A stretch of 64,000 nucleotides of DNA from Oligoflexia bacterium. Its GTDB lineage: Bacteria > Bdellovibrionota > Bdellovibrionia > JABDDW01. Below the pieces are notes generated by a model, which saw nothing but the letters and a program-made list of their open reading frames with translations, was not told where the DNA came from and ran no database searches. Location of the stretch: the NCBI GenBank assembly GCA_020847095.1, contig JADLCR010000072.1, positions 37,586 through 101,585 on the forward strand, in the 5' to 3' direction. Made by a program: the position numbers and the translations under genes. This document shows positions 46,367-54,208 of this stretch, one piece after another; the stretch's first letter is position 1; the number at the start of each line of letters is the position of its first letter.

Positions 46367-47047
46367 TTATTGTAGGTCTTTTGAGGACTTAGCGCTATAA
46401 ATTTTGAATTTCAAATCCGGGCGATCTTTGAAGTCGGTCAATGCCCAACCCTTTTCAAATCCAACAACTTGAATGTCTGCAGCCTGACCTTTGTCTACCT
46501 TAAAAGTCTTCTTCCCCGACGTTGGAATTTTGTATTCGTTGATATAACTAAATACACCCGCATCATTGCCTTGATACACGACTTCTACCGACAGTTCATG
46601 GGTTCCGGGTACAAGCGGACCTTTAAAAACATTGGTCTCTCGACCAAGGACCTTTTTTCCAAGATTGTCTTCGAGCGAATATACAAACACTCTTTCGTTA
46701 TCGATCAAATAGACTAAGGTAAAGATTTTGTAGCGGCTGCTCATCTCGTTGATGTGCTTGATTGTGACCACAGGATACGAAGACTCGACCGCTTCGGTCT
46801 TCATGAGCTGACGAAATAATAAGTTATGAGTTTTCTTGTCGAGAACCCGCTCCTTTAAAGTATCGATGTCATCTCTTACTACTTCATTCGGAATGGGAGT
46901 TGGTGCCTTGACCGCTTGTGATTTAGTCGCGAGGGGCTTTGCGGTAGGTGCTGCGGCAGGTGACGGACTTGCACTAACATCGGCGGCAATGGCAGAGGCA
47001 TTGATGAGCAATGAAATCGCAATGAAACAGCCAATTCGGCTGATCAT
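46367..47047 (-). CDS. Periplasmic protein with Pro/Ala linker (226 aa)
   Basis: The family is unknown. A signal peptide (MISRIGCFIAISLLINASAIAA) is followed by a low-complexity Ala/Pro/Lys linker (about 24-55), then a helix (DDIDTLKERVLDKKTHNLLF) and a beta-sandwich-like domain (KIFTLVYLIDNERVFVYSLEDN ... GPLVPGTHELSVEVVYQGND ... GKKTFKVDKGQAADIQVVG). The layout suggests a carrier or adaptor with an immunoglobulin-like fold. ATG overlaps the mltD stop by 4 nt, so it is translated with the lytic transglycosylase. Confidence 0.7.
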   Translation of the reverse strand: MISRIGCFIAISLLINASAIAADVSASPSPAAAPTAKPLATKSQAVKAPTPIPNEVVRDDIDTLKERVLDKKTHNLLFRQLMKTEAVESSYPVVTIKHINEMSSRYKIFTLVYLIDNERVFVYSLEDNLGKKVLGRETNVFKGPLVPGTHELSVEVVYQGNDAGVFSYINEYKIPTSGKKTFKVDKGQAADIQVVGFEKGWALTDFKDRPDLKFKIYSAKSSKDLQ

Positions 47048-48783
47048 GCCGCTCTCCCTTTTGGCTTCACAAATCTTTGGCTTTTCTTTTTCCCGGCTTT
47101 AATATTCTGCGCTTCGCGAGTTTTTCCGGGCATGGGGATCACTAGCTTTTGCCCCGGACGCAAGCGCCTCACGCTCTTAGAAGACAAATTATTGGCATCC
47201 ATAATGTCTGCGATTTTTACGCCCCATTCATTTGCGATAAGCCCCAGATTTTCTCCACGACGAATCACATGAACACCCTCTTCTTGAATGACTTCTTTAG
47301 GCTGAATAGAAGCCAGTACGGGAAATGCCGTCAAGAATCGGTCGCGTGTTCCCTTGGGCACCCGAAGAGTTTCGCCCGCAGGAATTCCAATTCTTCCCTG
47401 AACAATTCTTCTTGATAAATATGGATTATATAGCCGAGCCAAATCTTCACCGGGAATTTTCTCTGATTTGAAAAATTCAGCCAGACCCGAAAATGAAATG
47501 GGCTTAGGTATTTCTACGTTTTCATATTCAATGGGAGCCGCAATTCGAAGATTATGGCCAAAGTATTTATCCGCTTCTGCTTCGACATTTAGGGCCGCCA
47601 AAAATTGTGCATAATAGTTTCTTCCGTCATGGCGAAAGCGGCGGGCTTTACCTCTGTTGACAATATCCGAAATTTCTTTGGTTCGGCCCAGCTGCTTACT
47701 GAGATAAAGAACCGTTCCAGGGCCTTGATTGTAAGAAGTCAGCGCAAATGGCCAATTTCCAATACCAGGAATCTCATATAAAAACTTTAAATAAACGGCC
47801 GCAGCGTGAGTAGAAGGCTCAGGATCATTTCGCCGCTCAATCGCAGGGGATCCCTTCATTTTATAGAATTCCCACTTCTCACCCATCTTGTGCTTCATGT
47901 GAGTCCAAGTTGACGGAATGAACTGCCACTGCCCGGCAGCGCGACTTCGAGAGTAAGCAAATGGATTAAACATACTTTCGACAAACGGTAACCGTGTCAG
48001 TTCTTTTGGAAGACCATAAGAAGCAAAAATTTCTTCCATTTGCCGAATATAACGACCCGAATTGTAGAGCCCTTTGTAAAAAATCTCGCGCTGGCCCGCA
48101 TGCATGATCACCCGACTGCGCTTTGCTGCTTCTTTGAATTTATTGGGTTCGTTGTGGTTAGCAAATTTTTGATAATACTCCAGCGTTTCGCCCTCAAATT
48201 TGTCCGCTGTCTTTAAGTTCTTTGAGATAAAAGCCAAGATTTTGAGGATGCGTTCTTTTTCTTTTCGAATGCGTGCTTGCATTTCTTTAATATCGGCTGC
48301 GTCCGTCATATCCAAAACGCTGTAAACAATACTCCAATTCTTAGCGTCGTGAAAAACGGCGTGGCGGGAAGAGTACTTTCCGTAAAGATCAATCCATAAG
48401 CGAACCCGATGCTCCAAGTCCTTTGGCATTTTAAAAGCGTCCGGTGACCAACCCAATGCATTTTCCTGGTCTGAATAATCTGGTTTCTTCCAGGCAATCG
48501 TTCCTTCTGCCGGTAGGTCTTCAATTACAATCTTGTTTTCTTCGATGATATTGATTTGATCTTCCTCGTCAGCCGTTTGCTCGACCGCTTGCTGCCGATC
48601 ATCGTCGGATTCGGGAACTACTGGATTTTCTGGTAAAGTTGGAGGTGGCGTTCCTTCGACTACAGAAGTATCCATGGCTGGTGGAGCAGCGTGGGGCGCT
48701 TGTTTATCGTTGTGTGACGGCCAGGCCCACGCTTGGTCAGCCAGCAATGCAAAACATAGTACGGCCTTTAAGAGTTTTTTCAT
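47044..48783 (-). CDS. mltD: MltD-like membrane-bound lytic transglycosylase with LysM
   Basis: MltD-type enzymes cut the glycan between MurNAc and GlcNAc, releasing anhydro-muropeptides. After a signal peptide (LLKAVLCFALLADQAWAW) and an acidic Pro-rich linker, the SLT domain (about 245-400) has the catalytic Glu269 in LPFVESMFNPFAYS, then SRAAGQWQFIPSTW and the LTSYNQGPGTV block. A region of about 100 residues leads to a C-terminal LysM (VHVIRRGENLGLIANEWGV ... LRPGQKLVIP), which binds peptidoglycan. The tail is very basic (GKKKSQRFVKPKGR). It overlaps dacB and the 226-aa gene by 4 nt each. Confidence 0.93.
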   Translation of the reverse strand: MKKLLKAVLCFALLADQAWAWPSHNDKQAPHAAPPAMDTSVVEGTPPPTLPENPVVPESDDDRQQAVEQTADEEDQINIIEENKIVIEDLPAEGTIAWKKPDYSDQENALGWSPDAFKMPKDLEHRVRLWIDLYGKYSSRHAVFHDAKNWSIVYSVLDMTDAADIKEMQARIRKEKERILKILAFISKNLKTADKFEGETLEYYQKFANHNEPNKFKEAAKRSRVIMHAGQREIFYKGLYNSGRYIRQMEEIFASYGLPKELTRLPFVESMFNPFAYSRSRAAGQWQFIPSTWTHMKHKMGEKWEFYKMKGSPAIERRNDPEPSTHAAAVYLKFLYEIPGIGNWPFALTSYNQGPGTVLYLSKQLGRTKEISDIVNRGKARRFRHDGRNYYAQFLAALNVEAEADKYFGHNLRIAAPIEYENVEIPKPISFSGLAEFFKSEKIPGEDLARLYNPYLSRRIVQGRIGIPAGETLRVPKGTRDRFLTAFPVLASIQPKEVIQEEGVHVIRRGENLGLIANEWGVKIADIMDANNLSSKSVRRLRPGQKLVIPMPGKTREAQNIKAGKKKSQRFVKPKGRAA

Positions 48784-50183
48784 TTAATCAATATCTCTGT
48801 TAATTTGTCGAAGAACGCACGCACTTTCGCGCCGTCCGCCCCTCCATTATACATGAAAGCAAAAGCAAAAACTCCGCCTTTTGGCCTCCCCGCAAAGCCA
48901 GACAAACTACTCACACCTGTTAAAAGTCCGGTTTTAGCGCGAACCCAGCCTTTGGTCTCTCCGTTCATCCGTTTTTCCAAAGTTCCATCGGTGCCAGAGA
49001 TCGGCAAGCTCTGCAAAAATTCTGGGTAAATTCTAAAATCATTTTCTACCCAATTAAGTAACTTAATAAAATGGCGAGGAGCAAAACTGTTGTCGCGAGA
49101 AAAACCTGAAACATTTGCTAAAACGTATTCGCCCTTTTTAAAATCCAGTTCATCTTGAAGAAAATCCTGTACAATTCTTAGGCCCATGGCCATGGTGCCT
49201 TGCTTGCCGGTTTTCGTGGCAGCCAAGCCTTTGGCAAGCATTTCTCCGACGAAATTGTTTGAAAACTTATTCATGTCCGAAACAAGTTTGCTCATAGGTA
49301 AACTTGGATTGGTTGAGCCCACATCTTTAAACGCCTCGCAGGTTGATCGCCTCACCTGCCCTGAAACGGTAATCCCCCGCTGTCTTAAAAATGAAACTAA
49401 ATTGTGTCCCGCATAGAGAGCGGGATCTGAAATGTTTTTATAAAAATGCTTCTCAGATTCGTTGGCCCCGATTGTTCCATCGACAACTATTCGGTCCTGG
49501 CTTTTTCCTGCCACTCGACTGACTTGAAGATTTGTGCTGCGCCCAGTTTTCGCATTGTTGACGAGCTGGACATAGCCATTTTCTGGATCGACCCATGCTC
49601 TTGCCTGCCCGTCGCCGGAATGAGACGGCCGCACATAGACGGTGGTTGAATTCCAATTGAACGAAAGTGCACCCACCGGAGCATCGTAGGCGCGATCATT
49701 TCGACCGGGTTCGCGCCCTTCATCAATTCGATCTTGGTCAAAAAATGAATCGTCAACCAACAAGTCGCCTTCAACCGAGGTGATATCCGTTCGTAAAAAA
49801 TCGTTAACTAACATCCACATGCGCTCAGACACAAATGCGGGATCACCGCCGCCCTTAAGGCATAGGCTTCCCTTGAGTACTTTTCCTATACGCTCGTTGG
49901 CTTTGTATACGATTTGCGTTTGAAACTCGAAACCCGGTTTTAGTTCGTGCAGCACCGCCGCCGCCGTAAACAACTTGGTGATACTGGCCGGGATGAATCG
50001 TTTGTCGGGATTAAGAACGTAAACTTCTTTATCGTCAGGACCTAAGACTACAATGCCCAAATCGGTCTCTTTTAGACCGGAGCGGGCTACGGCTTTGGCG
50101 ATTTTTGATGACTGGTCCTCGGCGGCGAAGACCATTGGTCCAGATATCAAGATCAAGGCGGCGATTGAGAATAAGTTTGTCAT
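48780..50183 (-). CDS. dacB: D-alanyl-D-alanine carboxypeptidase/endopeptidase (PBP4, DacB)
   Basis: PBP4-type enzymes trim the terminal D-Ala and cut crosslinks in peptidoglycan. The catalytic SxxK is SITK (Ser67, Lys70 from the start used here), the SxN motif is in MNKFSNNFVGEML and the KTG in VRAKTGLLTG. The insert between SxxK and SxN, characteristic of class C PBPs, includes GGDPAFVSERMW and GALSFNWNSTTV. The longest ORF starts with a TTG whose codon overlaps AAGGA; the ATG at 50183 has AAGGA at 7 nt and opens the signal peptide (MTNLFSIAALILISG). It is the first gene of the ten-gene set. Confidence 0.93.
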   Translation of the reverse strand: MTNLFSIAALILISGPMVFAAEDQSSKIAKAVARSGLKETDLGIVVLGPDDKEVYVLNPDKRFIPASITKLFTAAAVLHELKPGFEFQTQIVYKANERIGKVLKGSLCLKGGGDPAFVSERMWMLVNDFLRTDITSVEGDLLVDDSFFDQDRIDEGREPGRNDRAYDAPVGALSFNWNSTTVYVRPSHSGDGQARAWVDPENGYVQLVNNAKTGRSTNLQVSRVAGKSQDRIVVDGTIGANESEKHFYKNISDPALYAGHNLVSFLRQRGITVSGQVRRSTCEAFKDVGSTNPSLPMSKLVSDMNKFSNNFVGEMLAKGLAATKTGKQGTMAMGLRIVQDFLQDELDFKKGEYVLANVSGFSRDNSFAPRHFIKLLNWVENDFRIYPEFLQSLPISGTDGTLEKRMNGETKGWVRAKTGLLTGVSSLSGFAGRPKGGVFAFAFMYNGGADGAKVRAFFDKLTEILIK

Positions 50184-50196
50184 TTTCATATCCTTC

Positions 50197-50225
50197 AATG
50201 TTTACGATATTCAAAAGGACGTCAA
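50197..50225 (-). promoter_or_regulatory. Possible promoter of the dacB-mltD-TPR set
   Basis: On the minus strand TTGACG (50220-50225) is followed after 17 bp by AACATT (50197-50202), about 14 nt before the dacB ATG. The -35 matches 5 of 6 bases but the -10 only 3 of 6. It overlaps the plus-strand promoter of the Omp85-type gene, so the two would compete or share control. Confidence 0.3.
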
Positions 50226-50244: not shown

Positions 50245-51342
50245 ATGACCCGTGCCACGTTGCTTCTATGTTTATTCCTCTTGAGTCCTTCATTTTCCTA
50301 TGGACAGCAGGAATTGCAAGACACTCTCATTCTCATTCCTTCACTTGGTTACAGTGATGACTTGGGCGTAGGTTTAGGTGCCAATGGGCTATGGGCAGGA
50401 GTTTTGGGCAGCTCATTTACGGGACAGGGTGATTTTCAGTACGCCAATACCGCCGGCCAGTCCCTTGTTAATGTCAATGTCTTCACGAAACGACTTTTAG
50501 ACGTTTTATATTTTGAGTTAGGGGTGGGTTACCAAAAAAGCAGGAACGCCAGATTTTACGGCATTGGAAACGAATCCAACTTCAATGACCCATCTTATTA
50601 TGCTTTTGAAGACAGCAATTATTACGGAAGAATAGGATTTGGCCTGTTTGATTTGGTCACATTAGGGGTCGGTTATTCGCGACGCCAAATCGGACTCACG
50701 CGCAGCCAACGGCCCGATGACCCGCAGTTTTTTGACCGCTTTTTAGATCATCCAAGGCCCTCTGGGCTTAACACAACGTACCTCGAATTTTTCATGATGA
50801 TCGATACTCGAAATAATATTTACCTTCCAACCGATGGGTTTTATCTTTTTTCTTCAGTCAATCAAACTCAATCCCGAACAGGCGAAGATTTTGGTCAGCA
50901 ACGTATTTTGGCCGACGCCCGATATTACCTTCCTTTCTGGAGCGGAGACATGATCTTAGCTTCGCGGCTGCGGTACGAGCGCGAATGGGGAGAGAATGTT
51001 CCATTTTATGCGCAAACACGGATTGGAGGCCAAGACACCTTCCGAGCCTGGCGCACAAACCGATACGTCGATGCAGGCTCTACTGTTCTCAATGTTGAAG
51101 CGCGGTTTAAGGGTTTTGCCGTCGGAAGTGCCATCACTCGCATCGAACCTAGCATTGGCCTCGACTTTGGACGCGTCTTCGACACTCGTACATTTCCACC
51201 AATTCCTCCGTTTGAAAATTACCGAAGAGGCTGGTCCCTGGGCCTGACGGCGGTCACCGCATCGAATATACCCGTCCGTTTCGACTATGCATGGGCCGAC
51301 GAAGGCGCCCTGTTTTACCTTCATCTCCTTCAGCCATTTTGA
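50245..51342 (+). CDS. Omp85-superfamily outer-membrane barrel without POTRA domains
   Basis: A signal peptide (MTRATLLLCLFLLSPSFSYGQ) leads directly into a barrel of about 345 residues, which fits a 16-strand Omp85 (surface antigen D15) domain. The conserved loop-6 region usually reads R-G-F/Y; here IGGQDTFRAWRTNRY keeps the Arg but has Ala-Trp after it. The C-terminus ends LLQPF, with terminal Phe as the barrel-insertion signal. No POTRA repeats are present, so it cannot be BamA or TamA itself. Patatin-like or other passenger domains are also missing. Its function, perhaps export or porin-like, is unknown. lspA follows after 12 nt. Confidence 0.8.
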   Translation: MTRATLLLCLFLLSPSFSYGQQELQDTLILIPSLGYSDDLGVGLGANGLWAGVLGSSFTGQGDFQYANTAGQSLVNVNVFTKRLLDVLYFELGVGYQKSRNARFYGIGNESNFNDPSYYAFEDSNYYGRIGFGLFDLVTLGVGYSRRQIGLTRSQRPDDPQFFDRFLDHPRPSGLNTTYLEFFMMIDTRNNIYLPTDGFYLFSSVNQTQSRTGEDFGQQRILADARYYLPFWSGDMILASRLRYEREWGENVPFYAQTRIGGQDTFRAWRTNRYVDAGSTVLNVEARFKGFAVGSAITRIEPSIGLDFGRVFDTRTFPPIPPFENYRRGWSLGLTAVTASNIPVRFDYAWADEGALFYLHLLQPF

Positions 51343-51354
51343 TAAACTGATTCA

Positions 51355-52260
51355 ATGAAAAGACGAGACTGGCTTTATGTTCTAACGGCCCTGGTTTTTG
51401 CTTGGGGAATTGATCGCATTACCAAGCAATGGGCAACCGGTCTCTATGGTGTAAAATTCTATGGCCCCGTTGGTTTTATGCTTCATCACAATCACGGAGC
51501 CATTTTGGGAATATTCAGCGATCTCCCCAGCATGCTGCGAATCGTGAGTTTGTCGACCGGGGGAGCCTTCCTCCTTTTTCTATTCTTTATGATCCAGTTT
51601 TTGCTTCCGACCAAGTCCCTGTCCCTGCGAATTGGCTTGTCTTTGCTCATCGGAGGGATCGTTGGTAATGTGACCGATCGAATTATCTGGGGATATGTTG
51701 TTGATTTTATCATCATCGGATCGCCAAAAAAATTCTCACCTAATTTTAATTTTGCCGACGCCATTCAGTGGGTAGGTTACGCGCTTATTGTGGTTGCACT
51801 TTTGCGCGAAGGCAAATCACTTTGGCCCGCTGAAAATTTGCGAAAGAGCTTTTGGATCAACCCTCGGTATCAGCTTCGCTATTGCATTATTTTGATGCTT
51901 GTTGGATTTGGACTAACAATCGTGCTCGGGACTTATAGTTACACCTACTTAAGCGTAACTATCACTGAGTTACGGGGAGTTAATCCGGCACTCGCCACGC
52001 AGTTTTTGAGGCCTTTTGTTGCAACCTTTGGACTCGTCAGCTTAACTTTTTCTGTAGTCTTGTTTGCCGTGGGCCTGATTCTGTCTCATCGCGCGGCTGG
52101 CCCAATATATGCGTTTCAAAGATTTTTAAATGACCACATTGATGGCAAAGACAGCAAACTCAAACTGAGAACAGGCGATGAGTTTAAAGAATTAGAAAAG
52201 CTGGCCAACCGCATGGCACAAGAACTTAATCCAAAATCACCGCGCTCGAAATCCGGTTAA
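51355..52260 (+). CDS. lspA: Signal peptidase II fused to a two-helix HAMP-like module
   Basis: LspA removes signal peptides from prolipoproteins in the inner membrane. Residues 1-160 have the family pattern: an N-terminal helix with DRITKQWA, HHNHGAILGIFSD, GGIVGNVTDRIIWGYVVDF (Asp108) and FNFADAIQWVG (Asp135); the two Asp are the catalytic pair. Residues about 170-301 are additional: two membrane helices (ILMLVGFGLTIVLGTYSYTY and FGLVSLTFSVVLFAVGLIL) and a HAMP-like segment (AAGPIYAFQRFLNDHI ... GDEFKELEKLANRMAQEL). Usual LspA is about 160-170 aa. It overlaps the exonuclease gene convergently by 35 nt. Confidence 0.88.
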   Translation: MKRRDWLYVLTALVFAWGIDRITKQWATGLYGVKFYGPVGFMLHHNHGAILGIFSDLPSMLRIVSLSTGGAFLLFLFFMIQFLLPTKSLSLRIGLSLLIGGIVGNVTDRIIWGYVVDFIIIGSPKKFSPNFNFADAIQWVGYALIVVALLREGKSLWPAENLRKSFWINPRYQLRYCIILMLVGFGLTIVLGTYSYTYLSVTITELRGVNPALATQFLRPFVATFGLVSLTFSVVLFAVGLILSHRAAGPIYAFQRFLNDHIDGKDSKLKLRTGDEFKELEKLANRMAQELNPKSPRSKSG

Positions 52261-53053
52261 CATAAAATCGCTTTTCTCGATGTTCACGATGACATAAACC
52301 CACAACGTAATCTCCTTGGGGAGTTCGAACGATTCCCTGAGGAGTCATGCGCCGCGGCTCACCCGGGGTGCTTCCACCTTCATATTTAAATTCAATGGCC
52401 AATTGCTTTTGACTAGCTTCGACCAAAACAGAATAAGTTTCCGATTGAGTCACGAGTTTCTTCAGCGAAAAACGCTCCCATTCAAAAACGGATTCCTGGG
52501 CAGCAAATACTTCGCCAATTGTTTTGTCATCACCAAGCTTTTTCATCAGTTCGAGAGCAACTCCCAAACAAGCCTCTGCGTCATCTAAAGCGCGGTGCGC
52601 GCGCTCCTGGGGAACTTTTAATTCTTTTACGAGAGTGGCGAGCCTGTAATTAAAAAGCTTTGGAATCACTCGTTGACCCAAGAAACAAGTATCAAGCACG
52701 GGGCCGGTGGGAAGACTGAGGCCCGCTCTTTCAATTTCTGGGGCCAAAAACCCCATATCAAATGCCGCATGATGTGCTACCGGAATTCCATCGCCCATAA
52801 ACTTCAAAAAAGGACCAATCACTTCGCCGATCGAGGGAGCATCGGCGACCATTTCGTTGGTGATGCCATGAATGGCAATGACTTGCTCGCCCATAGGGCG
52901 AACGGGCTTAACCAAGGCCTGAAAACGCTCAATGATCTGTCCGTTCTTCCATTTCGCCCCGGCAACCTCTACGATTTCTGCCGTCAGCGGATACTTGCCG
53001 GAAGTCTCGGTATCAAAGCCTACAAAAACACAGTCGCGCCAATTTTTATTCAT
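52226..53053 (-). CDS. DEDDh 3'-5' exonuclease with possible WYL-like C-terminus
   Basis: The N-terminal exonuclease domain (residues about 8-180) belongs to the DnaQ/RNase T superfamily: FDTETSG (Asp14, Glu16), VAHHAAFDMGF, then the HxxxxD of RAHRALDDAEA. Such enzymes proofread or trim DNA or RNA ends. Residues about 210-275 (QKQLAIEFKYEG ... GIVRTPQGDYVVGLCHRE ... RFYVNRISSAVIL) look like a WYL-type beta domain, known to sense nucleic acids or nucleotides. It is not a polymerase subunit by context. It lies convergent to lspA with a 35-nt overlap and 27 nt downstream of the lipoprotein gene. Confidence 0.83.
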   Translation of the reverse strand: MNKNWRDCVFVGFDTETSGKYPLTAEIVEVAGAKWKNGQIIERFQALVKPVRPMGEQVIAIHGITNEMVADAPSIGEVIGPFLKFMGDGIPVAHHAAFDMGFLAPEIERAGLSLPTGPVLDTCFLGQRVIPKLFNYRLATLVKELKVPQERAHRALDDAEACLGVALELMKKLGDDKTIGEVFAAQESVFEWERFSLKKLVTQSETYSVLVEASQKQLAIEFKYEGGSTPGEPRRMTPQGIVRTPQGDYVVGLCHREHREKRFYVNRISSAVILD

Positions 53054-53080: not shown

Positions 53081-54208
53081 TTACTGGGAGCAAAAGGATT
53101 TCAAATCGCCAAATGTTCTTGGCAGCTTATTGACTCCACTAAAACTAACCGTTAGCTCCGGGGACCAAGCTGCTATGGAGCCAATGAGGGACTGTTTGTA
53201 TTTATCAAATGAAACTTTTCCTGAGCAAACCAATTGATGGGCGTTAGTCTCACCTGACGCCGCCGGAACTTCAGAGTATCCAAATGTGACATTGTCCCAT
53301 TCGGCGGCTTTTAGTGCATCCGAAGCGCTGAACTCGCTTTGCGGCCAGCTATCAATCATCACTCGAACCTTATTAAATCCAAGCTCTTTTAAGCACTGGG
53401 CGCTAGGCTGAGCCGCCGAGTTAAACTCTAGGTTGAGCCCTGGATAGTTCATCATCACCAAAGTTGTGACTGGGGTCGCCTCGGGCGACTTCACCATTAA
53501 ATCATTCCAACCAATATCTCGCTCTCTGACTTGAGCTTCTTGACTGACAGCTTCCAAAATATAGCTTCGGAAAACATCGATCTCGGTCGAAAGGTTGTCT
53601 CGTCTCGTTGATCGTCCTCGCAACTTTAGATAGTCGCGTGCTTCAGGAGAATATATCGGAGAGCTCAGTCCCATTGGGGGCATCCCAAAGGCTTCATTTC
53701 CTTTAGAAAGGCCACGCAAATAAAGCTGGAAGAAGGTTTTCGGATGGACGATGTAAATCATTAACTCTCCCGTTTTGGAGCGGATCTTTTCGAGTTCAAT
53801 GATTTCCTTTAAGGCTTCGCCCTCGTAACTCTTTGATCTTTTAGACTTGAATTGGCCAGCCGACTCAATGTCTTTAAATGCCGGGTTAAGTTCAGGAGCT
53901 TTAACCGTAACATTGACAAACGGGCTGAAACTAAAGCCCGTTGAAAGAAATGCTCTCCATGAAGCGTCACAAGAGCTGCTACCTGAAGCGGATCTTGCTT
54001 CTTCGGCGTTATTCGCCGAGGCGGGCAAAGATTGATCATTTAGGGCTAAATCCACCACCGGCTTGGACGGGTCGACTTTGCGCTGTTGAGGAGTGCAGGC
54101 GCTAAAAAGGGCTATTGCCAATATCATCAAAAGGGAAAAATAGGCCAAATCGGAAATTCCTACACGACGAGTGCCAAAAACTGTTCTTAGTTCCGTTTTA
54201 AACTTCAA
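53081..54208 (-). CDS. Putative lipoprotein of unknown function (375 aa)
   Basis: The family is unknown. A basic N-terminus and membrane stretch (FSLLMILAIALFSAC) end in a lipobox, with Cys38 as the predicted lipidated residue. The mature part is Ser/Ala-rich at first, then mixed alpha/beta with Cys pairs (SSSCDASW, AQCLKEL, LVCSGK, FCSQ at the end). The TTG start has GGAG at 7 nt. A shorter start at an internal ATG (LLMILAIALF) is possible. It is divergent from fabI. Confidence 0.65.
   Translation of the reverse strand: MKFKTELRTVFGTRRVGISDLAYFSLLMILAIALFSACTPQQRKVDPSKPVVDLALNDQSLPASANNAEEARSASGSSSCDASWRAFLSTGFSFSPFVNVTVKAPELNPAFKDIESAGQFKSKRSKSYEGEALKEIIELEKIRSKTGELMIYIVHPKTFFQLYLRGLSKGNEAFGMPPMGLSSPIYSPEARDYLKLRGRSTRRDNLSTEIDVFRSYILEAVSQEAQVRERDIGWNDLMVKSPEATPVTTLVMMNYPGLNLEFNSAAQPSAQCLKELGFNKVRVMIDSWPQSEFSASDALKAAEWDNVTFGYSEVPAASGETNAHQLVCSGKVSFDKYKQSLIGSIAAWSPELTVSFSGVNKLPRTFGDLKSFCSQ

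Follow-up and report, generated by a model that had tools for sequence, protein, structure and literature searches.

LspA-HAMP, a candidate second signal peptidase II of Bdellovibrionota with putative client lipoproteins of its own

A 301-residue protein joining the lipoprotein signal peptidase LspA to two further membrane helices and a HAMP module (LspA-HAMP) was found in a 64,000-nucleotide stretch (the window) of an Oligoflexia bacterium assigned to Bdellovibrionia (contig JADLCR010000072.1, GCA_020847095.1). Its sequence and distribution suggest a second signal peptidase II of Bdellovibrionota that may have client lipoproteins of its own and may be controlled or dimerized by its HAMP module, a reading that we hold to be evenly poised between right and wrong. 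The structural and evolutionary part of this account, comprising an intact LspA site, a tail with two transmembrane helices and HAMP (2TM-HAMP), one ancient fusion, and a housekeeping LspA alongside, appears near certain from the sequences. A separate client set is suggested by co-occurrence and is likely, at a confidence that we place midway, while HAMP gating rather than plain dimerization is a guess by analogy that we regard as rather unlikely. LspA, an antibiotic target, is commonly regarded as an enzyme of a single domain that recognizes one consensus substrate. A preliminary description of the gene had proposed that lipoprotein processing could be regulated by a membrane signal or, alternatively, that the tail may bind a partner. 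What the sequences appear to add is that the fusion is a second LspA, that its tail belongs to a common stand-alone family, and that there is a distinct set of candidate clients. Candidate clients whose signal peptides end in [FY]-x-[NHQ]-C may be the more telling clue, and this link is possibly the more important one.

Table 1. The LspA-HAMP gene, its parts, and its neighbors (window coordinates)
Feature	Position	Strand	Basis
LspA-HAMP fusion gene, the genome's second signal peptidase II, 301 aa, ATG to TAA	51355..52260	+	intact ORF
LspA (Peptidase_A8) part, residues 1-155: four membrane helices and extracytoplasmic strands	51355..51819	+	Pfam, AlphaFold2
Conserved Asn N46 codon (HHNHGAILG; ordinary-LspA counterpart NxGAAF)	51490..51492	+	orthologue alignment
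Catalytic Asp D117 codon, motif VVDF	51703..51705	+	orthologue alignment, divergent fusions
Catalytic Asp D135 codon, motif NFNFAD	51757..51759	+	orthologue alignment
Tail, residues 157-301: conserved cytoplasmic NPRYQL, membrane helix 5, short periplasmic loop, membrane helix 6, HAMP	51823..52257	+	AlphaFold2
HAMP domain, residues 241-292 (LSHRAAGPIYAF ... GDEFKELEKLANRM)	52075..52230	+	hhalign
SLT-LysM lytic transglycosylase	47044..48783	-	Pfam SLT 1.3e-18, LysM 2.1e-10
dacB-type D-Ala-D-Ala carboxypeptidase (S13)	48780..50198	-	Pfam Peptidase_S13 E 7.5e-81
Omp85-superfamily outer-membrane protein, upstream	50245..51342	+	Pfam Omp85 E 4e-13
Exonuclease-WYL gene, convergent; overlaps 3' end of fusion by 35 bases	52226..53053	-	Pfam RNase_T 1.5e-30, WYL 2.9e-7

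A diverged LspA and its HAMP tail

The Pfam family Peptidase_A8 (PF01252) matches residues 14-150 of the protein (E 2.3e-21; 76.9 bits, cut-off 25). Both catalytic aspartates, D117 and D135, are invariant among 37 orthologues of LspA-HAMP, together with N46, G104, N105, D108, R109, N132, and A134, and in alignments the pair is also retained in divergent fusions from other classes. The original identification of an LspA with both catalytic residues kept is thereby confirmed, and these residues suggest an active aspartyl signal peptidase. The full-length AlphaFold2 model displays the LspA four-helix fold, with TM scores of 0.64-0.72 by target length against the LspA structures 5dir, 6ryp, and 6ryo (Foldseek, E 2e-7 to 7e-6); LspA was the only fold retrieved with the full-length model. 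The 301-aa protein scores 49.9 bits with the NCBIfam equivalog TIGR00077, short of the cut-off of 73.95, which marks it as a diverged LspA, a member of the superfamily rather than the housekeeping equivalog. Pfam LspA scores of the fusions range from 77 to 95 bits, versus about 130-153 bits for the housekeeping copies of the same genomes. In all aligned fusions the substrate-contact loop NxGAAF is replaced by NxG-x-x-x-G, indicating altered specificity, and in the fusions of family f15 the strand region preceding N46 is shortened. LspA-HAMP thus resembles LspA (PF01252, MEROPS A8) in its four-helix fold, Asp pair, conserved Asn/Arg positions, and matches to solved structures, but departs from the ordinary enzyme of about 165 aa in its length, diverged score, and altered NxG loop.

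The roughly 145 residues beyond the LspA part are modeled by AlphaFold2 as two long membrane helices followed by a helix-connector-helix element. In the single-chain tail model (32 homologues, mean pLDDT 89.4), helices span tail residues 14-51, 55-106, and 122-135, and a membrane helix runs into the helix-connector-helix, which is the topology of HAMP. The preliminary description had named two membrane helices and a HAMP-like segment lacking an output domain, and the predicted structure and the profile of the tail family agree with it. Direct scanning of the 301-aa protein did not bear this out, as neither Pfam HAMP (PF00672) at E up to 1 nor any NCBIfam HAMP model was matched; the domain call comes instead from tail-family profiles. 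By hhalign, the tail family aligns in register with the HAMP domains of the source genome over 52 of 53 columns (probability 97%, E 3.5e-11), and the A2 tail set, composed mostly of fusion tails, does so with E 5.4e-5. Pfam HAMP is also matched directly by 13 of 32 tail-family members (best 7e-9). Foldseek with the tail model yielded only weak HAMP matches, the top PDB entry being the HAMP kinase WalK (9a5d) with a probability of 0.99 but an E of 0.55, which supports the HAMP call short of proof. The HAMP signature, consisting of the AS1 Pro and the DEF motif, is retained in nearly all aligned fusions. No C-terminal output domain is present, as the 301-aa protein stops about 10 residues past HAMP, and the periplasmic loop of only about 20 residues contains no ligand-sized sensor domain. 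Both termini of LspA are cytoplasmic (PMC8689077), which would place the HAMP domain in the cytoplasm, its usual side, if the LspA part has the usual N-in/C-in topology.

Distribution, ancestry, and genomic setting

A full-length fusion without an internal stop occurs in 59 of 60 relatives, representing 34 genera at 43-75% identity. Across the class it is found in 123 of 144 genomes (98 of the 106 of good quality; 61 of 69 genera), with the genomes lacking it being mostly small ones of family f3. A sequencing error or the artificial joining of two genes, either of which would have undone the fusion as first described, is practically eliminated by the recurrence of the same open frame. The fusion was likewise detected in 22 of 107 sampled genomes from the other classes of the phylum; a contig search returned only Bdellovibrionota loci, a plasmid search gave no match, and the open-access literature held nothing relevant on an LspA with HAMP in Bdellovibrio. 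An ordinary LspA of about 170 aa accompanies the fusion in 60 of 60 close relatives, so that the fusion is a second, extra LspA and not a replacement. In most loci fetched, this canonical lspA comes after ileS, and lgt is often the next gene. Of the 22 fusion-bearing genomes from the other classes, 21 possess the ordinary enzyme. The one genome in which the fusion is perhaps not a second copy (G139) carries two fusions and apparently no ordinary LspA, and it counts against the reading of a separate second LspA.

In the LspA-domain phylogeny, a branch with SH-aLRT 96 has all 46 fusion domains on the same side, and a tree of tails likewise places 47 fusion tails together, weakly (support 70). 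Both trees would fit a single ancient fusion that was then inherited vertically with losses, or that was in part transferred between classes. Two variants were seen along the way: a tandem tail duplication, in which a stand-alone tail gene immediately follows the LspA-tail fusion (G035, L088:6455-6961), and a fusion of 485 aa in all with an extra C-terminal domain that is thioredoxin/AhpC-like by eye (G069, L123:5424-6878).

Within Bdellovibrionia, the gene neighborhood is conserved to varying degrees. The dacB-type gene is divergent from the fusion in 27 of 27 loci, the SLT-LysM transglycosylase lies within four genes in 22, and the exonuclease gene is near in 18, while conservation of the Omp85-superfamily gene beside the fusion is limited to the family of the source genome. 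The second gene downstream of the fusion, on the opposite strand (window 53081-54208), encodes a 375-aa lipoprotein-like protein with the near-canonical lipobox LFSAC.

The tail family is made up mostly of stand-alone 2TM-HAMP proteins of about 150-200 aa, with several copies per genome. In the source genome, one such gene overlaps the latter of a tandem pair of lgt genes in the operon ileS-lspA-lgt-lgt, and in another genome (G001) one follows lgt. The overlap, seen in the source genome's family only, would link the tail family directly to lipoprotein maturation, and together with the existence of stand-alone homologues it makes the binding of a partner by the tail, the alternative first raised for this gene, appear more plausible. 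A general association of the tail family with lgt was considered and rejected, as it holds only in the source genome's family (G000, G001), with varied placements elsewhere. The tandem lgt genes of the source genome are divergent and sit between lspA and the stand-alone gene (contig C86, L005:2184-4709); two lgt genes also occur in G001 (L085) and G006 (L178), and there is possibly one Lgt per lipobox class. In families f15 and f24, a stand-alone 2TM-HAMP gene was repeatedly observed directly upstream of an SLT-LysM transglycosylase (L109, L111, L113, L114, L117), the type of gene that in Bdellovibrionia neighbors the fusion.

Candidate client lipoproteins

The usual lipobox is L-[AS]-[GA]-C. 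Outside the class, genes adjoining the fusion repeatedly encode a signal peptide ending in FQNC, YNHC, FNHC, YTQC, or YNQC. A gene with [FYL]-x-[NHQ]-C (or FQN[F/G]) lies within four genes in 15 of 20 other-class fusion loci versus 1 of 69 control loci from the same classes, a count that is not an independent test because the motif was derived from those fusion loci. Twelve of the 15 motif-positive loci have the Cys and three have FQNF or FQNG. Eight f15 operons, which repeat the order motif protein, Tat-type protein, motif protein, and fusion, amount to one evolutionary event, while families f10, f14, and f18 contribute separate cases. The f15 operons (L124, L126-L131, L133) start with a DUF1549-like gene, a motif protein of about 240 aa, and a Tat-type protein of about 490 aa; they end with a motif protein of about 450 aa carrying a cytochrome-like CxxCH, LspA-HAMP, and an outer-membrane-like protein with CxTCHYNP. 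The operon at L131 is rearranged.

Genome-wide, the DNA pattern for FQNCG gave 154 matches versus 27 for the reversed control in 37 Bdellovibrionia genomes; the corresponding figures for 85 genomes of other classes that lack the fusion were 52 and 42. Among the matches inspected, 14 of 19 in Bdellovibrionia close an N-terminal hydrophobic segment, versus 0 of 31 in the fusion-less genomes of other classes. In one genus of f15, a genome with the fusion (G126) has two N-terminal matches, both beside the fusion, and one without it (G066) has none among eight. Similarly, N-terminal FQNC accounts for 0 of 6 matches in the fusion-less relative G051, which is a reduced genome, versus 8 of 24 across four fusion-bearing members of the class. 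As a general marker in f15, FQNCG proved useless, since genomes of this family carry the YNHC/FNHC/YTQC form. The source genome encodes at least four N-terminal FQNC proteins and two FQNF proteins. The four FQNC and two FQNF genes map to L269:937-1560, L280:1411-3011, L291:1-1626, L295:663-1016, L295:1040-1447, and L306:553-1599; their products include a subtilase and an OmpL47-type surface protein, and at L295 an FQNC gene adjoins an FQNF gene.

Behind the signal peptide, the motif proteins are unrelated to one another, with bodies of the subtilase, GDSL lipase, c-type cytochrome, OmpL47-type, and NHL kinds, so that the motif behaves as a sorting signal and not as a family trait. FQNC proteins display a basic start and a hydrophobic segment, followed in most by Cys at +1, with FQNF and FQNG as the exceptions. 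The ordinary lipobox pattern is unmet, with N/H/Q at -1 in place of G/A/S and F/Y at -3 in place of an aliphatic residue. No paper on FQNC lipoproteins was found in the open-access literature, and the papers searched yielded no experiment.

Several observations weigh against a dedicated pairing of motif and enzyme. In Bdellovibrionia, no motif gene lies beside the fusion, and 788 kb of context loci contain 0 motif ORFs. A draft genome of family f6 that is 98% complete (G205) has three motif proteins in one cluster resembling the f15 operon, and no fusion was detected in it; either the fusion was missed in a gap, or ordinary LspA suffices. This cluster (L397:15476-19862) comprises FQNC, YSNC, Tat-type, and FHNC cytochrome-like proteins with no adjacent fusion and lies downstream of several flagellin-like genes. 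Furthermore, Lgt and LspA require the lipobox Cys, and the FQNF/FQNG neighbors of three divergent fusions lack it, so that no lipidation is possible at that position.

Possible roles and relation to known systems

We advance tentatively, and with slightly more doubt than belief, a model of two parallel branches of lipoprotein maturation: one of LspA and the usual lipobox, the other of LspA-HAMP and [FY]-x-[NHQ]-C, HAMP-gated or HAMP-assembled, together constituting an orthogonal lipobox-peptidase pair. LspA-HAMP would cleave signal peptides with [FY]-x-[NHQ]-C, instead of L-[AS]-[GA]-C, at the end of the hydrophobic segment, with client ends of FQNC in Bdellovibrionia and YNHC, FNHC, or YTQC in the Bacteriovorax-like family f15. 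Its precursors would thus carry a bulky polar residue (N, H, or Q) just ahead of the Cys and an aromatic one at -3, a preference in keeping with the changed NxGAAF loop and with the shortening, in f15, of the strand region that precedes N46. The clients of this branch would be a set of surface and cytochrome-like proteins. A HAMP module is normally a parallel dimer; here it would keep two enzyme chains together, or pair the enzyme with a stand-alone 2TM-HAMP protein in a heterodimer, and by analogy it may gate access to the active site on a cue from the membrane or a partner.

Several other roles can be envisaged for the fusion. The tail might only oligomerize LspA or dock it to Lgt or another membrane protein without any signaling, which is compatible with a second LspA having its own clients and which we consider a serious, if somewhat doubtful, possibility. 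The missing output domain is in line with such docking, as are the several stand-alone homologues per genome with the lgt overlap in the source genome and the lgt adjacency in G001, but nearly all fusions retain the AS1 Pro and DEF motif, as though the HAMP fold itself mattered. HAMP modules transmit conformational signals, and the enzyme could instead be a general-purpose LspA under regulation that cleaves ordinary lipoproteins and is switched on during one phase, for instance prey invasion or envelope stress, with FQNC being incidental. The conserved dacB and SLT-LysM neighbors are cell-wall genes that would fit a phase of envelope remodeling. This reading is nevertheless unlikely, given the short periplasmic loop devoid of a ligand-sized sensor and the loop change common to all fusions, which suggests changed specificity; it also leaves the co-localization of [FY]x[NHQ]C genes in several families unexplained. 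Additional lspA copies protect producers of LspA inhibitors in Streptomyces and Myxococcus xanthus (PMC8689077), so that a spare copy conferring resistance to globomycin- or myxovirescin-type compounds of competitors has a precedent. It is, however, very improbable for a gene inherited vertically through almost the whole class in a fixed chromosomal neighborhood, outside and away from biosynthetic clusters and without a plasmid match.

The preferred reading of LspA-HAMP as a second signal peptidase II has partial parallels in known systems. Like HAMP proteins such as WalK and chemoreceptors (PF00672), the fusion has a membrane helix leading into helix-connector-helix, an AS1 Pro, and a DEF motif. 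Unlike them, it lacks a kinase, cyclase, or chemotaxis output, its enzyme is N-terminal and on the membrane side, and there is almost no periplasmic sensor. Myxococcus xanthus, with lspA1-4, resembles the fusion-bearing genomes as a predatory bacterium with several LspA copies, which are tied to lgt or the myxovirescin cluster; no extra domain is mentioned in the review (PMC8689077). Inside-out receptors of the LapD type are likewise HAMP membrane proteins linked to a protease, controlling periplasmic LapG (PMC4359373). In the LapD-LapG system, however, the protease is a distinct protein that is recruited, and HAMP is driven by c-di-GMP domains, whereas the fusion carries its protease within the HAMP chain and has no comparable input domain.

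If the preferred reading is true, a second LspA with a signaling module and its own recognition motif has been kept across a class of bacteria that prey on bacteria. Lipoprotein prediction in these genomes would then change, as signal predictors may miss FQNC, and FQNC would represent an orthogonal lipidation tag. LspA-HAMP would also make testable the question of whether a HAMP module can control an intramembrane protease.
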